From positions 1 to 23,742 of IMG/VR virus record IMGVR_UViG_3300020215_000139: 23,742 nucleotides of DNA; one strand, written 5' to 3'. Below, in pieces: positions 656 to 23,172 of this stretch. Both the position numbers and the translations under genes were made by a program. The notes below the pieces were generated by a model. It was given only the letters and a program-made list of their open reading frames with translations. It was not told where the DNA came from and ran no database searches. Source of the DNA: a virus. Position 1 is the stretch's first letter, and every line of letters begins with the position of its first letter.

Positions 656-1742
656 GCCGCTCCCTCCGCTGCCCTACAGCTGGGCCCAGGTGAAGCACCG
701 GCTCCAGCAGGATCTGACGCGCGTGCTGGAGCGGCTGGGGATCTACGACCAGCCCAAGAACGGGCTCATCACGCCCCTGAACCCGACGCGGGCCGACCGG
801 CATCCGGGGTCGTTCGTCATCTGGACCGCCGGCGAGGCCGTGGGGGCGTGGAAGGATTACGCCACCGGCGACGAGGGCGACCTGTTCATGCTCATCATGT
901 ACCTGGGCCGGCTGCAGCGTCGGATCGACGCCTATTGGTGGGCGCTGGATCACCTGGGCCTGGCGCGCGGCGAGGTCCGCACCAAGGAACAGGACGCCCA
1001 GGACCGCGACCGCATCGCCCGCGACCGCGCGGCGGCGGCCGCGAAGGAAGCCAAGAAGTCGGCGGAGAAGTCGGCCAGCCTGTTCAAGCTGTGGCTGGGC
1101 CTGCCCGAGGGGATCATCGGCACGCCGGCGGAACGCTACCTTCGCGAGGCGCGGGGCCTGCCGATCGAGCAACTGCCCTATCCCATCGGCGCCCTGCGCT
1201 GGGCGCGGGACGTGGAGTGGATCGACCCCGAGACCGGGGAGGTCAAGACCTGGTCCAACGTGATGATGGCGGCGGTGACCAAGGGGGCCAAGGTCATCGG
1301 CCTGCACCGCACCTTCCTGAAGCCGGACGGCAGCGGCAAGGCGCCGGGCAAGGCCAAGTTCATGATCGGCCCCACAGCCGGCGGCGCGATCCGCCTGACC
1401 AAGGGCAAGGGCGGACTGACCCCCGGCGAGGCGGAGAAGAAGGGGGCGCGCTGTCCGCTGATCCTGGGGGAGGGGATCGAGACCACCCTTACCCCCGCCA
1501 TCGCCCGGCCCGACTATCGCGCCTGGGCGGCGGGGAGCCTCGACCACATGGCCCTGATCGAGTGGCCCGAGTGCGCCAGCGCCGTGGTTCTGCTTCGGGA
1601 CAACGACTGGGCGCCCGAGGCGCAGCGGGCGTTCGAGAAGGTGCATCGGCACTGGGAAAAGCAGGGCGCCGGGCGGCCGGTGGCGGTGGTCTCCAGCACG
1701 TCGGGGAGCGACCTGAACGACATGGTGCGGGGGGTGGGATGA
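648..1742 (+). CDS. TOPRIM-domain primase-like protein
   Basis: A 364-aa protein. I chose ATG 648, which overlaps the HNH stop by 8 bases; the frame is open back to 555, but that part is the shadow of the HNH gene. The N-terminal third (about 20-110) contains the ADRHPGSFVIW and AWKDYATGDEGDLFMLIMYL segments typical of phage primase-like proteins that bind nucleotides or DNA. A charged Ala/Lys/Arg helix follows (about 120-155). The C-terminal half carries a TOPRIM fold: LILGEGIETT at 271-280 gives the catalytic Glu275, and RDND at 317-320 gives the DxD metal-binding pair. GSDLNDM near the end is usual for this group. It probably primes phage DNA replication together with the ATPase encoded at 3023. 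No CHC2 zinc finger is visible. Confidence 0.85.
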   Translation: MREPLPPLPYSWAQVKHRLQQDLTRVLERLGIYDQPKNGLITPLNPTRADRHPGSFVIWTAGEAVGAWKDYATGDEGDLFMLIMYLGRLQRRIDAYWWALDHLGLARGEVRTKEQDAQDRDRIARDRAAAAAKEAKKSAEKSASLFKLWLGLPEGIIGTPAERYLREARGLPIEQLPYPIGALRWARDVEWIDPETGEVKTWSNVMMAAVTKGAKVIGLHRTFLKPDGSGKAPGKAKFMIGPTAGGAIRLTKGKGGLTPGEAEKKGARCPLILGEGIETTLTPAIARPDYRAWAAGSLDHMALIEWPECASAVVLLRDNDWAPEAQRAFEKVHRHWEKQGAGRPVAVVSSTSGSDLNDMVRGVG

Positions 1743-2242
1743 GCCTGCTGCCCATGGTCACCTTTGACGTGATCGAACGTGAGGAGCTGAACCGTTGCCT
1801 CACGGCATGGGGCCACTTGATGGGCCCGTGCATCCGGCCGGCGAAAGGCTGGTCCCACGGCTTGCGCCATGATGGCGAGCTTGTCGCCGTGGTCGCGACG
1901 GACGGCCTGATCCGCCCGACCTGCGCCGGCTTCACGCGCGACCAGGCGGTGGAGTTGTCACGCGTCTGCGCCGTGCGGCGAGACCTTTGCCGCGTCGCCG
2001 TCCGACTCTGGCGGGAATTCGTGTTCCGCCAGCTGGCCGCCGGCGAGGGCTACACCTGGGCTGTCAGCTATCAGGATCAGCGCCTCCACGTCGGCGATCT
2101 CTACCGGTTCGACGGGTGGTTGCCCGTCGCGACGTCGCGCAGCGGGACCGACAAGCGAAGCGGCAAGAAGGGACGTCGAAAGGTCATTTGGGCCTGGTCG
2201 CCCGATCCCTTGGCTATGGCGGCGCGGAGGGCGGCGGGATGA
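1739..2242 (+). CDS. GNAT-fold protein, Mom-like or XF1762-like
   Basis: A 167-aa protein whose ATG at 1739 overlaps the primase stop by four bases (ATGA). The open frame extends back to 848, but that is primase shadow. The order of segments is that of a GNAT acyltransferase: VELSRVCAV strand, a helix with RLWREFVFRQL, then WAVSYQDQRLHVGDLYRFDGW. The last resembles the S-Y-x-D...H-x-G-x-x-Y-x-x-x-G-W signature of the phage Mu Mom family, which modifies adenine in phage DNA and blocks restriction enzymes. The C-terminus is Lys/Arg-rich (about 140-155), fitting nucleic-acid contact. The DNA methyltransferase two genes downstream makes a DNA-modification role attractive. The alternative is a phage GNAT of unknown substrate. 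The fold assignment is moderate and the substrate is inference. Confidence 0.5.
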   Translation: MSLLPMVTFDVIEREELNRCLTAWGHLMGPCIRPAKGWSHGLRHDGELVAVVATDGLIRPTCAGFTRDQAVELSRVCAVRRDLCRVAVRLWREFVFRQLAAGEGYTWAVSYQDQRLHVGDLYRFDGWLPVATSRSGTDKRSGKKGRRKVIWAWSPDPLAMAARRAAG

Positions 2243-2325
2243 AGCCCGACAGCACCGCAGTGATGGCTCGCCGGAACGCAGCCGATCCGGGCACGCCGCT
2301 CCTCGATGGATTGGGGGGGGGATGA
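2239..2325 (+). CDS. 28-codon mini-ORF, leader of the methyltransferase
   Basis: ATG 2239 overlaps the stop of the upstream gene (ATGA), and its own TGA (2323-2325) overlaps the ATG of the methyltransferase at 2322, so translation could be coupled through it. The peptide contains DSTAVMARRN and ends LGGG encoded by a G9 run. DSTAVMARRN closely resembles GHTAVMAQRQ at residues 11-20 of the downstream methyltransferase. The mini-ORF may therefore be a decayed duplicate of that N-terminus, or an N-terminal extension cut off by a one-base change in the G tract. No other domain is possible at this size. Confidence 0.4.
   Translation: MKPDSTAVMARRNAADPGTPLLDGLGGG
2313..2321 (+). repeat. G9 homopolymer before methyltransferase start
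   Basis: Nine consecutive G residues end immediately before ATG 2322. They encode the last Gly codons of the mini-ORF and lie where a ribosome binding site would be. One extra G would fuse the mini-ORF to the methyltransferase in frame. Tracts of this kind slip easily during replication and are also error-prone in sequencing. Confidence 0.9.
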
Positions 2326-3026
2326 CTGAGCAGCCCGCCCTGCTGCCGAGCGGCCACACGGCTGTTATGGCCCAGCGCCAGCCGACGCAGACCGATAGCC
2401 TGGACTACTTCCCGACGCCCCCTTGGGCCGCCAGGGCTGGCGCGGAGCTGATTGCGCAGCTGGACCCGGAGGGCCTGGGCGTGTGCTGGGAGCCGGCCTT
2501 CGGGGGCGGCCACATGGCCCACGGGCTGGCAGACTACTTCGGTCAGGTCTTGGTTAGCGACATCCACGATCACGACAGCCAGGGGGTGAACCTGCTGGAT
2601 TTCCTGTCGCCGGACGCCGACGGGTTCGGCGGTGGCTCAGTGGATTGGATCATCACCAACCCGCCCTTCATCCACGGCGAGGCTTTCATTCGCGCGGGGT
2701 GGAAGCGAGCCCGGCGCGGCGTCGCGATGCTGCTGCGCCTCGCCTTCATCGAAACCATCGGGCGGTATCGGCTGCACGTCGAGGACTGCCCCCTGACCCT
2801 GCTCGCGCCGTTCAGCGAGCGGGTCCCCATGGTGAAGGGGCGTTGGGACCCGGACGCCTCCAGCGCCACCGCCTACGCCTGGTTCATCTACGCGAAGGGG
2901 GCGGCTGGGCCGACCCGGTTGCAGCTAGTCCCGCCGGGGTCGGCCGCGCGGCTAGCCCGGCCCGACGACCTGGTGCGGTTCGCGGGCGCCGCGCCTCAGG
3001 GCAACCTTTTCAGTGAGCGTCCATGA
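2322..3026 (+). CDS. Phage DNA adenine-type methyltransferase
   Basis: A 234-aa class I SAM-dependent methyltransferase. Visible elements are the N-terminal DYFPTPPW segment (28-35) typical of this phage group, motif I EPAFGGG at 57-63 (SAM binding), an acidic residue after strand 2 in VSDIHDH, and catalytic motif IV NPPF at 113-116. The last marks amino-methyltransferases acting on adenine N6 (or cytosine N4). There is no target recognition domain of restriction-system size, so it is probably a solitary phage enzyme that protects DNA or alters regulation. It starts inside the stop of the mini-ORF and ends with ATGA overlap into the helicase gene. Codon use is somewhat less GC3-biased than in the structural genes. 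Target sequence unknown. Confidence 0.85.
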   Translation: MTEQPALLPSGHTAVMAQRQPTQTDSLDYFPTPPWAARAGAELIAQLDPEGLGVCWEPAFGGGHMAHGLADYFGQVLVSDIHDHDSQGVNLLDFLSPDADGFGGGSVDWIITNPPFIHGEAFIRAGWKRARRGVAMLLRLAFIETIGRYRLHVEDCPLTLLAPFSERVPMVKGRWDPDASSATAYAWFIYAKGAAGPTRLQLVPPGSAARLARPDDLVRFAGAAPQGNLFSERP

Positions 3027-4936
3027 CCAAGCCCGCCAACCCCTTCGACCAGGTCGCGGCGCTGATCCCCGATTTCGAGGACGACGCCGAAGCCCTGATG
3101 ACCCTGCGCCAGGCGGCGCGGGTCGATCCGCTGCGCGGGTGCCCGATGAACGTGGCCGCCAAGGGCGAGAACGAACATCTGATCGAGCCCGGCAAGTGGC
3201 GGGCGGAGAACTTCGATCATCCGAGGACCGGCCTGCCGCTCAACTGCCCCGTTTCGCCCCTGGGGAAGCTGGGCAAGACGTTCTTCTTCCTGAACACCCT
3301 GGGCGAGGTCCACGAGCTGACCGACAGCGCCAGCGGTAAGGGCCCCATCGACGCTCTGTTCGCCGGGCGGCCGCTCTACCTCGAATGGGCCTGGCCCCGG
3401 TGGGCGGCTCCCAAGCGGAAGGGGGAGCCCTGGTCCGTGAAGGGCTATGAGGCCGACGAGTGCCGGAGGGACCTGTTCGCGGCCTGCGCCTACAAAGGCA
3501 CGTTCGAGCTCGAGGACCGGGTGCGCGGCCGCGGGGCCTGGCGCAACGACGACGGGGGCCTGATCTACCACGCCGGCGACGCCGTGTGGATCGACGGGAG
3601 GTGGAAGCCGCCCGGGGAGCATGGGCGATTCATCTATCCAGGCCGGCCCAAGATCGGGCGGCCGGCGGAGCGGGTCGAACCGGAAGGGGAGGGCTCACCC
3701 GGCGCCATCCTGCTGGAGGCGCTGGACAGCTGGAACTGGGAGCGCAAGGGCCTGGACAGCAAGCTGGCCCTGGGCTGGCTGATGACAGCTTTTGTCGGCG
3801 GCGCCCTGGAGCAGCGGCCGGTGGCCTATGTGGTCGGCACCGAAGGGGCGGGGAAGTCCACCCTTCAGAAGCTGTTCCGGCTGCTGATGAACGGGGCGCT
3901 GCTGGCGACGTCGAACACGACGCAGGCCGGCATTTACCAGAAGGTCAAACAGGACAGCGTGGCGGTCCTGGTCGACGAGATGGAGGCCAAGAGCGACACC
4001 CGGCTTACCGACAAGATCCTGGAACTCGCGCGGATCGCCTACAGCGGCGACAAGATGCAGCGCGGGGGCAAGGATGGCGTGGGCCAGGAATTCGCCGTGA
4101 TGAGCAGCTTCCTGATGTCGTCGATCGCCATGCCGGCCGTCGACGCCCAGGACGCCAGCCGGATGGCCGTGCTCATGCTCCGAGAGCGGGAGATTCCGCA
4201 GCCCGGCGAGAAGGCCGTCGACGTGCTTAAGGAACTCGGCCTCAGGGACGGCGCCAAGGCCCAGGCCATCGGCCGCCAGCTGCTGGCGCGGGCCTTCTCC
4301 TGGTTCACCATGGAGGGCAACCGCACCCGCTGGGAACGGCTGCTGGAGGCCTTTCGCGAGGCGCTGAAGGCGGCCGGCCATGAGGATCGCTCGGCCGACA
4401 CCTTCGGGGCCCTCGCGGCCGGCTGTCACATGGCGTTGCGGGACGTCATGCCCGACGACAGCGAGCTGAAGGCCTGGGGGGAGATGCTGGAGGCCCGCAC
4501 CCTCACCGAAACGGCCACGCGCGAGAAGACCTGGCGGCGCTGCCTGACCCACGCCTTGGACGCCGTGCCCGACGCCCTGAAGCACGAAAACCTGTCGAGC
4601 GCGGGGGCGGTGCTCTCGCGGTTCGCCGAGGACGGCAAATTTTCGCTGGAGACAGTGGACAAGGTGCTGGCCAAGTGCGGCATGGCGCTCAGCTGGGAAC
4701 AGGGGGCGCCGCCCTCCTTCGAGTACGCCCGGCTGTTCGTGCCGGCCAAGAGCGCGGCCCTTCATGGCCTGTTCAAGGATACGCCCTGGGCCGGTCGCCC
4801 TGGCACGCCCGGCCCCTGGATCGGGGTGCTGCGTCAGATGCCGCGCCACCTGTGGGAGAACGGCAAGTGCCTGAAGGGGCTGGACCGCAAGGCCAGCGGA
4901 ATCTTCATCTACCTCGCGGCGGCGCTGGAGGCCTGA
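3023..4936 (+). CDS. Replicative helicase/primase-type P-loop ATPase
   Basis: A 637-aa protein overlapping the methyltransferase stop by four bases. Walker A is GTEGAGKST at 272-280 and Walker B is VAVLVDEME at 313-321. A sensor-like stretch SSFLMSSIAMP follows, then DASRM with a candidate arginine finger. This layout, with about 250 residues before the P-loop and a helical C-terminal domain, fits phage and plasmid D5/P4-like or SF3-related replicative helicases. It probably unwinds phage DNA with the TOPRIM protein acting as primase. It is the last gene of the left operon; a hairpin at 5001-5041 and a long non-coding region follow. The ATPase assignment is firm; the exact helicase superfamily is not settled from sequence alone. 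Confidence 0.8.
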   Translation: MTKPANPFDQVAALIPDFEDDAEALMTLRQAARVDPLRGCPMNVAAKGENEHLIEPGKWRAENFDHPRTGLPLNCPVSPLGKLGKTFFFLNTLGEVHELTDSASGKGPIDALFAGRPLYLEWAWPRWAAPKRKGEPWSVKGYEADECRRDLFAACAYKGTFELEDRVRGRGAWRNDDGGLIYHAGDAVWIDGRWKPPGEHGRFIYPGRPKIGRPAERVEPEGEGSPGAILLEALDSWNWERKGLDSKLALGWLMTAFVGGALEQRPVAYVVGTEGAGKSTLQKLFRLLMNGALLATSNTTQAGIYQKVKQDSVAVLVDEMEAKSDTRLTDKILELARIAYSGDKMQRGGKDGVGQEFAVMSSFLMSSIAMPAVDAQDASRMAVLMLREREIPQPGEKAVDVLKELGLRDGAKAQAIGRQLLARAFSWFTMEGNRTRWERLLEAFREALKAAGHEDRSADTFGALAAGCHMALRDVMPDDSELKAWGEMLEARTLTETATREKTWRRCLTHALDAVPDALKHENLSSAGAVLSRFAEDGKFSLETVDKVLAKCGMALSWEQGAPPSFEYARLFVPAKSAALHGLFKDTPWAGRPGTPGPWIGVLRQMPRHLWENGKCLKGLDRKASGIFIYLAAALEA

Positions 4937-19852: not shown

Positions 19853-22846
19853 ATGCCGCTGTTGTTGGACGATCCGGAACCCGACGTCATCGGGCTGGCG
19901 GAGGGGGCCTCCCTCCTGCCGGTCAGCGATGGCCTGGCGTTCGACGCCATCGCGCGGGACACCCGTCTGACGGGGCGTCTGGCCAGCTTCATGGAGGTGG
20001 CGGCCGAGCGGCGGTTCGACCGCCATACCCAGCGGATGACCGGCTATTCGGCCATGCTGGACCCCGACGAGGCCAACGACCGCTTCGGCATCGAGGGGGT
20101 GCTTCGCTTCGACAAGCCGGTTCTGCCCGTCGAGGCCGCCTGGATGCAGCGGTCGGCCAAGGAACGGCAGTATCGCGACTATGTCGTGGGCCGGGCGGAC
20201 CTGGCGTGGTGGCAGTCGCTGGCGGCCGGCATGTACGGGGCGATCACGGACCCGGTCAGCTGGCCCCTGCTGCTGGCGCCCGAGGTGCTGGGGGTGGCGC
20301 GGCTTGGACAGGCGGCGTGGGGGGCGCGCGGCGGCATGGCGGCCGTTCGGGCCGGGCGGCTGGCCAACGCCGGCCGCTTCGCCCTGGAGGGGGCCGCCGA
20401 GGGCGCCGTGGGCGGGGTGCTGTTCGAGGCGGCGAACATGCCGCTGCGCCGGGCCGAGGGCGAGGATTACCGGTTCGGCGACGCCCTGCGGAACATCACC
20501 ATGGGGGCGGTGTTCGGAGCCGGCGCCAAGGGCTTGCTGGGCGCCATCCTGCCGCCGGGGCTGGCCTCCAAAGACCCGGAGGTTCGCGCGGCGGCCGAGG
20601 GCGAGGCGGCGGCCCAGGCGGCCGAGATCGACGCCCTGCCCGACAGCCGCCTGCCCGAAGCGGTCGAGGCCCTGCCCGAGGACAGCCGCGGGCCAATGGC
20701 GGCGCTGGCCGTCGAGCGGATGGCCGACGACGCGCCGATGGGGATGGGGCCGCTGCTGGAGCGGCGGCTCGACGACGAACTGCGGGCCCTCGACGAGGTT
20801 CCAGGCGAGGGTCGGCCGCCGCTGGCGGCGCGGGCCCTGGAGGACGGGGTGGCGGTGACCACGCGCGGGACGGAGATTCCCGTGCGCTATGCCCTGGTCG
20901 AGATCGACGACCTGGTGACCAGCCACGACGACGACCTTGTGCGCAACCCGGACTTTCCCGGCGCCCTGCAGCCCCGCGAGCGGGAGCGGGCCGGCGCCAT
21001 CGCCCGGAATCGACAACTCCAGTCGGAGCTGAACCCCAAGCGCCTGATGCGCGAGGCGGGCGCCGAGACCGGCGCCCCCATCGTCAGCGCGGATGGCGTG
21101 GTGGAAAGCGGCAACGGCCGGACCATCGCCCTGCGCCGGGCGGCCAACGAGGGGGCGGAGGCCTGGGACCGCTACCGCGCCGAACTGGAGCGGCAGGGGT
21201 TCGACACGGAAGGCCTGGAACGGCCGGTGCTGGTTCGCGTCCGCACCGAAGCCATGACCGGCGAGGCGCGGGCGGCCCTGGCCCGCGAAATGAACGCCGA
21301 CGTGACCGAACGCCTGTCGGTCACCGAACAGGCCATGGCGGACGCCGCCAGCCTGGATGACGCGGCCCTGGAGATCCTGGAGGCGGGCGACGTCGGCGGG
21401 CCGGGAAACCGCGCCTTCCTTGCCCGCGTGGCCGGCGACCAGGCCAACACCCTGGCGGACGCGGAAGGCCGGCTGAGCGCCACCGGCGTGCAGCGCCTGA
21501 GGGCCGCGGTCACGGCGCGGGCCTATGGGGACCCGCGCCTGGTCGAGGCGGTGTTCGAGACGGCGGACGGCAATATCAAGATGATCGGCCAGGCCCTGGC
21601 CGACGCGGCGCCCAGCTGGGCGCGGATGCGGGCCGCGATCGCGAGGGGGCAGGCGGCGGCCGAACTGGACCTCACCGCCAACCTGAGGGCGGCTGTGGAC
21701 CTTGTGCGCCATGCGCGCCATAGTCGCGTTCCCCTGGGGCAGCTGGTCGCCGACCGGCTGGGCCAGGTGGAGATGTTCGGGGGCGAGGCCATCGCCCCCG
21801 AAACCGAGGCCTTCCTTCGGCTGTTCTTCCGCGACGAGGCGTTCAAGCGCGGGCGGGCGGCGGCCAGGGTGGCGGCGGCGCTGGACGATTACAGCCGGCG
21901 GGCGGGAGAGATCGCCCCCGGCCCGGACCTGTTTGGAGAGACCCCCGATGCCGCGGCAAAGCGCATCCTCGAAGACCTCGGCGTCCGGCTCGCCGCCGAA
22001 CCCGACGACGCGGCCGGAGACCTCCTCGACCGCCTCCGCGACGACCCGCCAGACGCCCCGCGCCCTGCGCCTGAGCCTGTTGTCCTCGACCTTCGCCCAT
22101 CTCGCGGCGACGGCGAGCGACCCGGCGGAGAAGGCGCACGACCTGAAGGCGGCGGCGCGGCTGAAGGCGCTGAGCGAGGAGGCCTAACCGATGGCGAACC
22201 CGCTGGACCTGCCGCTGGCCCGGCCGCTGACGGAAGCGGAGCGCAAGGCGCTGGCCGAGGCGATGGCCAGGGTCAAGGTGGTGCGAACCCCGCACAGGCC
22301 GCACCCGACCAAGCAATAGAGTTTCCCGACCAGGCCCATGCGGACCTGTTCACCGCCGGCCGGCGCCAACTGGCGGGCGAAGCCGTTCCCGACGCGGAGT
22401 GGCAGGCGCTGGCGGAGCGGATCGGCCGGTTGATCGACTGGACCGATGTCGGGTTCGTCACCGCGCGGGTGCGCAGCAGCTTCAAGGGGGACCTGCCGCC
22501 GCCGGCGGTGATGCGCCGGTTCGCCCAGGACTATGCGCGGGGCATGGTCGAGGAGCCGGAGCTGTGGTCGCTCAGCCTCTACGACCCCGACCGGATCGGC
22601 GAGGCCCTGCAGCCGGTGACCCTGGCGCCGGCGAAACCGCCGCCGGCCGAATCTGCGCCGGCCGTCGGCCGGGGCCGCGCCATCATCGCCGCCGATCCGG
22701 AGCTGAAGGCCCTGGAGGAGGACACGGCCGGCTTCATCCGCGACCAGGGCGTGGAGCTGCCCGACAACCCCGCCCTTGACCCCGACGTCATCGCCGAGGG
22801 CGTCCGCGCGGCCGCCATCTGCATCAAGGAAGGGTGGGTCGGATGA
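19853..22846 (+). CDS. Large ejection-type protein with DdrB/ParB-like domain (gp16 position)
   Basis: A 997-aa protein in the place of T7 gp16. Two Gly-rich hydrophobic segments (about 127-150 and 214-236) could insert into membranes. Residues about 344-430 resemble the DdrB-type ParB-like domain of phage polyvalent proteins: RYALVEIDDLVTSHD, LNPKRLMREAG, then DGVVESGNGRTIALRRA (about 415-428), which carries the ParB-type DG...GxGR signature. Helices follow to about 735. Residues about 737-823 are a Gly/Ala/Pro/Glu linker in which roughly half the codons end in A or T, unlike the rest, and two other-frame ORFs lie there. A compact C-terminal part (about 824-997) has normal codon use and no ATG or GTG start of its own near 22320. 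ATG 19853 has only a weak ribosome site. Confidence 0.7.
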   Translation: MPLLLDDPEPDVIGLAEGASLLPVSDGLAFDAIARDTRLTGRLASFMEVAAERRFDRHTQRMTGYSAMLDPDEANDRFGIEGVLRFDKPVLPVEAAWMQRSAKERQYRDYVVGRADLAWWQSLAAGMYGAITDPVSWPLLLAPEVLGVARLGQAAWGARGGMAAVRAGRLANAGRFALEGAAEGAVGGVLFEAANMPLRRAEGEDYRFGDALRNITMGAVFGAGAKGLLGAILPPGLASKDPEVRAAAEGEAAAQAAEIDALPDSRLPEAVEALPEDSRGPMAALAVERMADDAPMGMGPLLERRLDDELRALDEVPGEGRPPLAARALEDGVAVTTRGTEIPVRYALVEIDDLVTSHDDDLVRNPDFPGALQPRERERAGAIARNRQLQSELNPKRLMREAGAETGAPIVSADGVVESGNGRTIALRRAANEGAEAWDRYRAELERQGFDTEGLERPVLVRVRTEAMTGEARAALAREMNADVTERLSVTEQAMADAASLDDAALEILEAGDVGGPGNRAFLARVAGDQANTLADAEGRLSATGVQRLRAAVTARAYGDPRLVEAVFETADGNIKMIGQALADAAPSWARMRAAIARGQAAAELDLTANLRAAVDLVRHARHSRVPLGQLVADRLGQVEMFGGEAIAPETEAFLRLFFRDEAFKRGRAAARVAAALDDYSRRAGEIAPGPDLFGETPDAAAKRILEDLGVRLAAEPDDAAGDLLDRLRDDPPDAPRPAPEPVVLDLRPSRGDGERPGGEGARPEGGGAAEGAERGGLTDGEPAGPAAGPAADGSGAQGAGRGDGQGQGGANPAQAAPDQAIEFPDQAHADLFTAGRRQLAGEAVPDAEWQALAERIGRLIDWTDVGFVTARVRSSFKGDLPPPAVMRRFAQDYARGMVEEPELWSLSLYDPDRIGEALQPVTLAPAKPPPAESAPAVGRGRAIIAADPELKALEEDTAGFIRDQGVELPDNPALDPDVIAEGVRAAAICIKEGWVG
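21948..22187 (+). CDS. Nested small gene 1 in another frame (79 aa)
   Basis: ATG 21948 is preceded at seven bases by GGAGAG (21935-21940). The ORF lies wholly inside the 997-aa gene in a different frame. By hand count about 3 of 79 codons end in A or T, although the overlapping long frame becomes A/T-ending from about 22064. The protein is Ser/Thr/Pro-rich and basic at first (MPRQSASSKTSASGSPPNP), with a more ordered C-terminal half (LRLSLLSSTFAHLAATASD, then AEKAHDLKAAARLKALSEEA). Function unknown. Before 22060 both frames look coding, so the first part would be truly dual-coding. Alternatives are a frameshifted end of the upstream part of the long gene, or chance in GC-rich DNA. Confidence 0.5.
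   Translation: MPRQSASSKTSASGSPPNPTTRPETSSTASATTRQTPRALRLSLLSSTFAHLAATASDPAEKAHDLKAAARLKALSEEA
22191..22319 (+). CDS. Nested small gene 2 in another frame (42 aa)
   Basis: ATG 22191 is preceded at eight bases by GAGGAGG (22176-22182), among the best ribosome sites in the window, and lies three bases after the stop of nested gene 1. The 42-aa product begins MANPLDLPLARPLTEAERKA, continues with a charged helix and ends in a His/Pro/Lys-rich tail (TPHRPHPTKQ). About 3 of 42 codons end in A or T, against about half in the overlapping long frame. This helix is more protein-like than the Gly/Gln/Ala linker read from the same bases in the long frame. Function unknown; the pair looks like a two-gene translational unit. 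Confidence 0.55.
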   Translation: MANPLDLPLARPLTEAERKALAEAMARVKVVRTPHRPHPTKQ

Positions 22847-23172
22847 TCTGTATGCGGAAGCGGTGCGCGGTTGAGGCGAAGTGGGCTCCGAAGCTTTGCG
22901 TCCCGGCTAAGAACATCCCCATCGAGGCGCACCAGCCCATTGCGGCCATCCTGGGCTGCGTCGTTTGCGACCGCCACTTCGACGACATGAGCGCCAGCGA
23001 CTGGTTGGAGACCGATGACGGTCGGCCCTCCCCCTTGGTGGCCATTTTTAAGCAGCTTGTAGCGGGACGGGCGCCGCCGGATTTCGAGCGTGCCTTTCTC
23101 ACCAGGGTTTCCGTCAACAGCAGCGAATACCTCCGGTACGTCGCGGCCGTAACTGGGGTCCCCGAGCAATGA
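22843..23172 (+). CDS. Cys-rich small protein, possible zinc binder
   Basis: A 109-aa protein from ATG 22843, overlapping the previous stop by four bases; GTG 22834 in frame is possible. Cysteines at 3, 8, 19, 39 and 42 and His45 include CMRKRC and CVVCDRH, a spacing compatible with a small zinc-binding site. The second half (about 65-105) looks helical. I do not recognise the family. Codon use (GCT, CTT, GTT, TTT, GTA) is more relaxed than in the surrounding virion genes, suggesting late acquisition. Its ATGA link to the next gene keeps translation coupled through it. Confidence 0.6.
   Translation: MICMRKRCAVEAKWAPKLCVPAKNIPIEAHQPIAAILGCVVCDRHFDDMSASDWLETDDGRPSPLVAIFKQLVAGRAPPDFERAFLTRVSVNSSEYLRYVAAVTGVPEQ

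Follow-up and report, generated by a model that had tools for sequence, protein, structure and literature searches.

A conserved small gene embedded in the linker of a phage DdrB-ParB polyvalent protein gene, and related nested genes in other phages

We identified a small open reading frame, ORF1, nested in the +1 frame of a gene for a large phage protein, and consider it almost certain to be a functional coding gene. Its overlap with the larger gene, its frame, its start site and the selection on it are established by sequence comparison, from which we infer its translation. Taking all observations together, the best explanation is very probably a gene embedded in the linker downstream of the DdrB module and expressed by internal initiation. 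A preliminary description of this DNA had proposed an embedded operon of two nested genes. For ORF1 the proposal stands, as there are homologues, a conserved start, a Shine-Dalgarno sequence, suppressed synonymous change and a foldable domain; the second frame, ORF2, is supported less and has no relatives. The term embedded operon is apt because other phages carry a nested array in which a relative of ORF1 is followed by a 129-aa gene.

The host gene and its nested reading frames

The window, meaning the whole stretch of DNA analyzed, comprises the 23,742 bases of an IMG/VR virus record, among them a podovirus-like virion cluster. The host gene (19853..22846, plus strand, as for all features below) encodes a 997-aa DdrB-ParB polyvalent or internal virion protein, identified through Pfam, PHROGs and homologues. 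It matches PF18763 with E=5.5e-29 and 101 bits (Pfam gathering score 27.6), phrog_5143 with E=2e-60, and the internal virion protein family phrog_342 with E=1e-6. The DdrB-ParB domain at aa 338-464 (20864..21244 by the Pfam match coordinates) is the one Pfam domain in the 997 residues, and giant relatives of the gene exceed 3000 codons. DdrB of phage P1 is the prototype of this domain (PMC5512222). Genes of the portal, major head, tail and internal virion protein families lie upstream, which makes this a late virion gene setting, and the 997-aa protein is probably part of the phage particle; the giant DarB-like protein of JC1, a related phage type, has been detected in virions by mass spectrometry (PMC9144972). 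As a homologous gene sits in a Brevundimonas genome bin, the host of the window phage is likely a member of the Caulobacterales.

Two other spots in the window deserve mention. A 112-aa ORF of unknown family (22834-23172) lies after the 997-aa gene and before the next virion gene; it is apparently missing in loci L011 and L013, and in L024 a different small ORF takes its place, which gives the spot the look of an insertion site. At 848-3026, a 464-aa gene with a weak Mom-like DNA modification match stands beside a 234-aa DNA methyltransferase gene, and the two are possibly a DNA-modification pair of the phage.

The coordinates and frames of the nested ORFs were confirmed, with ORF1 (79 aa, 21948..22187, family N1) and the window-specific ORF2 (42 aa, 22191..22319) both in the +1 frame of the host gene and separated by 3 bases. 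The Shine-Dalgarno sequence of ORF1, GGAGAG (21935..21940), coincides with the long-frame codons GGA GAG for the Gly-Glu of a DLFGE motif and ends 7 bases before the ATG. That of ORF2, GAGGAGG, is found in the sequence at 22176..22182, within the end of ORF1, and ends 8 bases before its ATG. Codon usage also shifts as first described: among the long-frame codons, 20 of the 41 that overlie the ORF1 core and 22 of the 43 along ORF2 end in A or T, where 5000 synonymous resamplings drawn from the host gene's own codons gave expectations of 3.7 and 2.5 and maxima of 12 and 9. Between about 22060 and 22320 the GC periodicity moves to the nested frame, whose third position is 0.90-0.97 GC against about 0.5 in the long frame, and the codon log-likelihood ratio is 31 for each nested ORF. 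Open length alone is no evidence, since 93-100% of the resampled sequences were likewise stop-free in the +1 frame. Taken by itself, the window shows no +1 codon signal over the first 38 or so codons of ORF1 (21948-22063), and the N-terminal residues of the ORF1 product, about 36 of them, show little +1 selection. AlphaFold2 predicts residues 1-36 to be disordered and aa 37-78 (22056..22181) to form a helical hairpin, with pLDDT of 94-98 for residues 41-79; the predicted hairpin begins where the +1 codon signal begins. Beyond 22320 the coding signal returns to the long frame, as had been noted, and aa 936-993 of the host protein (22658..22831), its C-terminal segment, are conserved in the original frame at 42-56% identity to relatives, with phmmer E-values down to 2e-12.

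ORF2 is probably a gene as well, on the evidence of its Shine-Dalgarno sequence, its position and a codon signal as strong as that of ORF1. It would most likely be the second gene of an embedded mini-operon, translated from the Shine-Dalgarno sequence inside the end of ORF1. Homologue searches found none for ORF2 and no convincing one for the long-frame segment between it and the conserved C-terminus (22320..22657), a lineage-specific insertion; relatives pass from the linker directly into the C-terminal segment. A recent origin is possible for ORF2, because approximately 22190-22655 is missing from all relatives. These absences would also suit a reading in which ORF1 is real and ORF2 is a recently acquired fragment of another gene, open by chance and without a product. 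We regard that as the less likely course, though one to be taken seriously, given the strong +1 codon signal along all 43 codons, the canonical Shine-Dalgarno sequence, and the recurrence of a two-gene layout with a different second gene in other phages.

ORF1 homologues and the internal start

About 30 other phage contigs and prophages carry a homologue of ORF1, with frame and location unchanged. One contig, 60% identical across the shared region, has a +1 peptide at the matching place, as do four more homologues (three viral contigs and the Brevundimonas bin) in which the long frame reaches the conserved C-terminus. Homologues 40-68% identical in the DdrB domain bear the +1 core LL(A/S)xTFxxLAxxExxPxxxAxxRxxAxxLxxLA at the corresponding position. 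Scanning with a seven-member alignment yielded 80 viral loci, and 32 nested ORFs, including that of the window, were listed with coordinates. The preliminary description had asked whether the nested genes also exist on their own; no free-standing copy was found, and the relatives of ORF1 are all nested. Likewise, a core HMM run on 388 Caulobacteraceae genomes returned two known nested copies, one weak match at an unrelated place and no free-standing copy, in a search whose sensitivity was limited by the short model and which missed the Brevundimonas copy. The pattern that the preliminary description had named as refuting, a retained linker with the nested frame interrupted by stops, was not seen in the near clade. 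The nested small genes are without annotation in all records checked.

In all 13 near-clade members, the GGAG of the Shine-Dalgarno sequence falls on the glycine codon of DLFG, which is always GGA, and an [A/G]TG start follows. GGA makes up 1-9% of the glycine codons in those 13 genes, and the product of these usages is 3e-19, a figure uncorrected for relatedness that overstates independence because the homologues are related. The near-clade starts read xAT|G or GGT|G across a long-frame codon ending in T, and the long-frame residue at this point varies among Asp, Asn, Gly and His. More widely, Shine-Dalgarno matches precede 27 of 32 N1 starts (partly chosen by hand) and 17 of 19 starts of the second nested family, N2, against 25% of control +1 ATG/GTG codons.

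The ribosome-binding site of ORF1 would be written into the long-frame DLFGE codons, so that ribosomes could start within the late mRNA; the internal start would yield a small protein, a disordered tail and a helical hairpin, alongside the large one. Internal initiation fits best because the start and Shine-Dalgarno sequence are conserved, +1 stops occur upstream, and the second ORF needs a start of its own. A programmed +1 ribosomal frameshift, joining the DdrB module to the nested peptide as a short alternative C-terminus, might account for the nested frame being +1 in every case and for the near-clade +1 frame being open from upstream of the ATG. It is nonetheless very improbable: +1 stops stand just before the nested start in L024, L047, L087 and L064, the ATG/GTG and Shine-Dalgarno sequence are conserved, no shared slippery site was seen by eye, and the second nested gene begins after the ORF1 stop with its own Shine-Dalgarno sequence and ATG.

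The preliminary description had also raised compensated frameshifts or a recent fusion, which is excluded for ORF1 because many independently assembled homologues share the arrangement. The low-complexity Gly/Ala character of the long frame, and the fact that ORF2 and the segment after it are specific to the window, could be taken to mean that sequencing mistakes or recent recombination fused two small genes into the long frame. We give this next to no weight: in numerous independent contigs, isolates and prophages the long frame runs on to its conserved C-terminus and the nested frame keeps to +1 without exception, and GC periodicity resumes in the long frame downstream in all 10 homologues compared.

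Distant relatives, a second nested family and selection in two frames

The N1 family is short and fast-diverging, and is linked only through HMMs built from nested peptides. Searched against 23,434 six-frame peptides, the near-clade HMM found untrained members in L047 (1e-5), L068 (0.02), L090, L070 and L052, and the best untrained members were nearly all +1 in a DdrB gene. HMMs of the near clade and of a distant group match each other moderately (L047 at 5e-7, the window at 1e-4, hhalign P=4e-5), and the hhalign probability of 71% is likewise moderate. BLASTP-type searches of cultured phages and plasmids gave no match for N1, the first alignment-based genome scan found no relative, and single-protein scans matched neither the nested pair nor the 772-aa gene. 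Searches of Pfam, PHROGs and NCBIfam with the nested products found no convincing family, the weak matches being at chance level. A weak match in L092 outside any DdrB gene and another in genome G134 (E=3e-4) were attributed to chance. An Acinetobacter plasmid, pANC7919.1 (L123), has an ORF1-related +1 ORF at 4109-4273 inside a gene annotated as a PLxRFG protein.

Another group of phages has a relative of ORF1 with N2 immediately downstream. N2 is a 129-aa gene that shares the +1 frame, has a Shine-Dalgarno sequence and ATG of its own, and differs from the ORF2 of the window. In each of the 27 viral contigs with N2, it lies +1 inside a host ORF of at least 1457 codons. Judging by CDS coordinates, six cultured phages also have it at +1, namely Parlo, Skulduggery, vB_KpnP_ZX1, Ruegeria 45A6, Vibrio D274 and 1.232.O, where the annotation has the giant gene only. 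Among seven close relatives, host position 3 differs by 0.08 in the N2 overlap (0.24-0.29 outside) and host position 1 by 0.20; judged from these sequences, the usual phase pattern of substitutions is reversed in favour of the +1 frame, as +1 coding predicts. Since selection on the +1 frame in places exceeds that on the host linker, this offers a clean case for the co-evolution of two frames. The AlphaFold2 model of the 129-aa product is all-helical with pLDDT of 80. Fold searches were uninformative for both families, the ORF1 hairpin being generic and the 129-aa model having no match below E=2.5.

Further +1 ORFs were observed in giant-gene linkers. One type (MIDPPxxxDTLExWQxHLK...) lies in a different linker, at codons 355-412 after the domain in L055 and 819-869 in L126 (Ruegeria phage 45A6), and the two are similar though the phages are distant. 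Related +1 ORFs (LLREEAM.../LSEEAVANV...) lie in a later linker of L059, L060 and L063, at about codons 420-550 after the domain. Upstream +1 ORFs are present at codons 469-514 in L128 (Klebsiella phage ZX1), with a weak SHOCT-like match, and at 335-387 in L124 (Serratia phage Parlo), both numbered within the part of the locus displayed. Single strong +1 signals were seen in other linkers at codons 965-1058 (L068), 1256-1345 (L070) and 521-580 (L106) after the domain.

The check on synonymous sites that had been suggested for ORF1 bore out the overlap. Among the four nearest sequences, long-frame third positions differ by 0.25-0.27 within the overlap and by 0.40-0.42 beyond it; the differences are flat across the three phases. 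In the helix segment, long-frame GC3 drops from 0.74-0.97 to 0.50-0.68 in 10 of 10 homologues compared. Selection is detectable in both frames of the overlaps, through wobble constraint and substitution phases. Across 80 non-redundant DdrB loci, a codon log-likelihood scan with a threshold ratio of at least 10 found 40 +1 signals and 3 +2 signals just after the domain; elsewhere, over 66,725 codons, it found 7 and 1. Two near members fall below the threshold (L011 at 8, L024 at 4), and about half of the DdrB loci, P1 among them, are without a signal. Similarity of the +1 peptides is exceptional in the near group and unexceptional over all sequences against a gene-codon-usage null; this all-sequence shuffle is compositionally biased and breaks shared descent, so substitution phases were used instead, and the similarity test overstates independence because the homologues are related. 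That there is no gene, the +1 peptide simply reflecting shared descent and the GC-rich composition of the linker, would suit the ordinary open length but is hardly credible, as the excess of A/T-ending codons lies above all 5000 resamplings, the inverted substitution phases contradict it, the rare GGA codon and the start are conserved, the hairpin is confidently predicted, and +1 signals far outnumber +2 signals.

Possible roles and comparison with known systems

We lean towards a broader view in which several families of small genes live obligately embedded in the linkers of giant polyvalent virion genes, which would serve them as standing nests, in the layout of overprinted operons. If so, annotation has missed such genes in phages of Caulobacterales, Vibrio, Ruegeria, Pseudomonas, Serratia and Klebsiella, and the nested proteins might act as partners dedicated to the injected protein, or be injected along with it as factors for host takeover. 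Homologous nested families do recur at the same location in distant phages and are unannotated in the cultured records checked, which suggests that gene callers miss a conserved class of proteins. Drawing on position, size and predicted structure, we tentatively suggest that the nested product may be a small helical partner in folding, docking, packaging or ejecting the polyvalent protein. Relatives in the cultured phages Parlo, Skulduggery and vB_KpnP_ZX1 make these ideas testable in the laboratory. In the literature searched, mostly outside the subscription journals, no description of the arrangement was found, and the nested families, their host genes, the two-gene nested array and its wide recurrence appear to be new.

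The host gene shares its DdrB-ParB domain and its place in a virion gene cluster with the DdrB/DarB polyvalent proteins of phages such as P1, for which Iyer et al. 2017 (PMC5512222) defined the domain; the passages searched in that paper hold no description of linker-nested genes. Unlike the host gene of the window, P1 ddrB has no +1 coding signal after the domain. P1 does have an annotated ORF inside ddrB, iddB ("internal to ddrB"); ORF1 and ORF2 are not its counterparts, as iddB is antisense and they are in the sense +1 frame, after the domain. An embedded Rz1 has been described for Bcep22-like phages (PMC9144972, PMC6606913). Rz1 in Rz resembles ORF1 in being a small gene wholly inside another phage gene, with its own internal start. 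In contrast to Rz1, the nested products have no Cys (in all those checked) and no lipoprotein signature, the host gene is that of a giant virion/antirestriction protein rather than Rz, and more than one nested gene occurs; ORF1 was rejected as an Rz1 spanin for its lack of Cys and because its host gene is not Rz.

Embedded genes as such are an already known kind. To our knowledge, most examples in dsDNA phages are isolated ones, such as Rz1. Small ssDNA phages of the phiX174 type have overprinted genes, in which one stretch gives two proteins in two frames through internal initiation. In contrast, the nested genes described here belong to dsDNA phages, lie in the linkers of very large genes, and form homologous families across distant phages.
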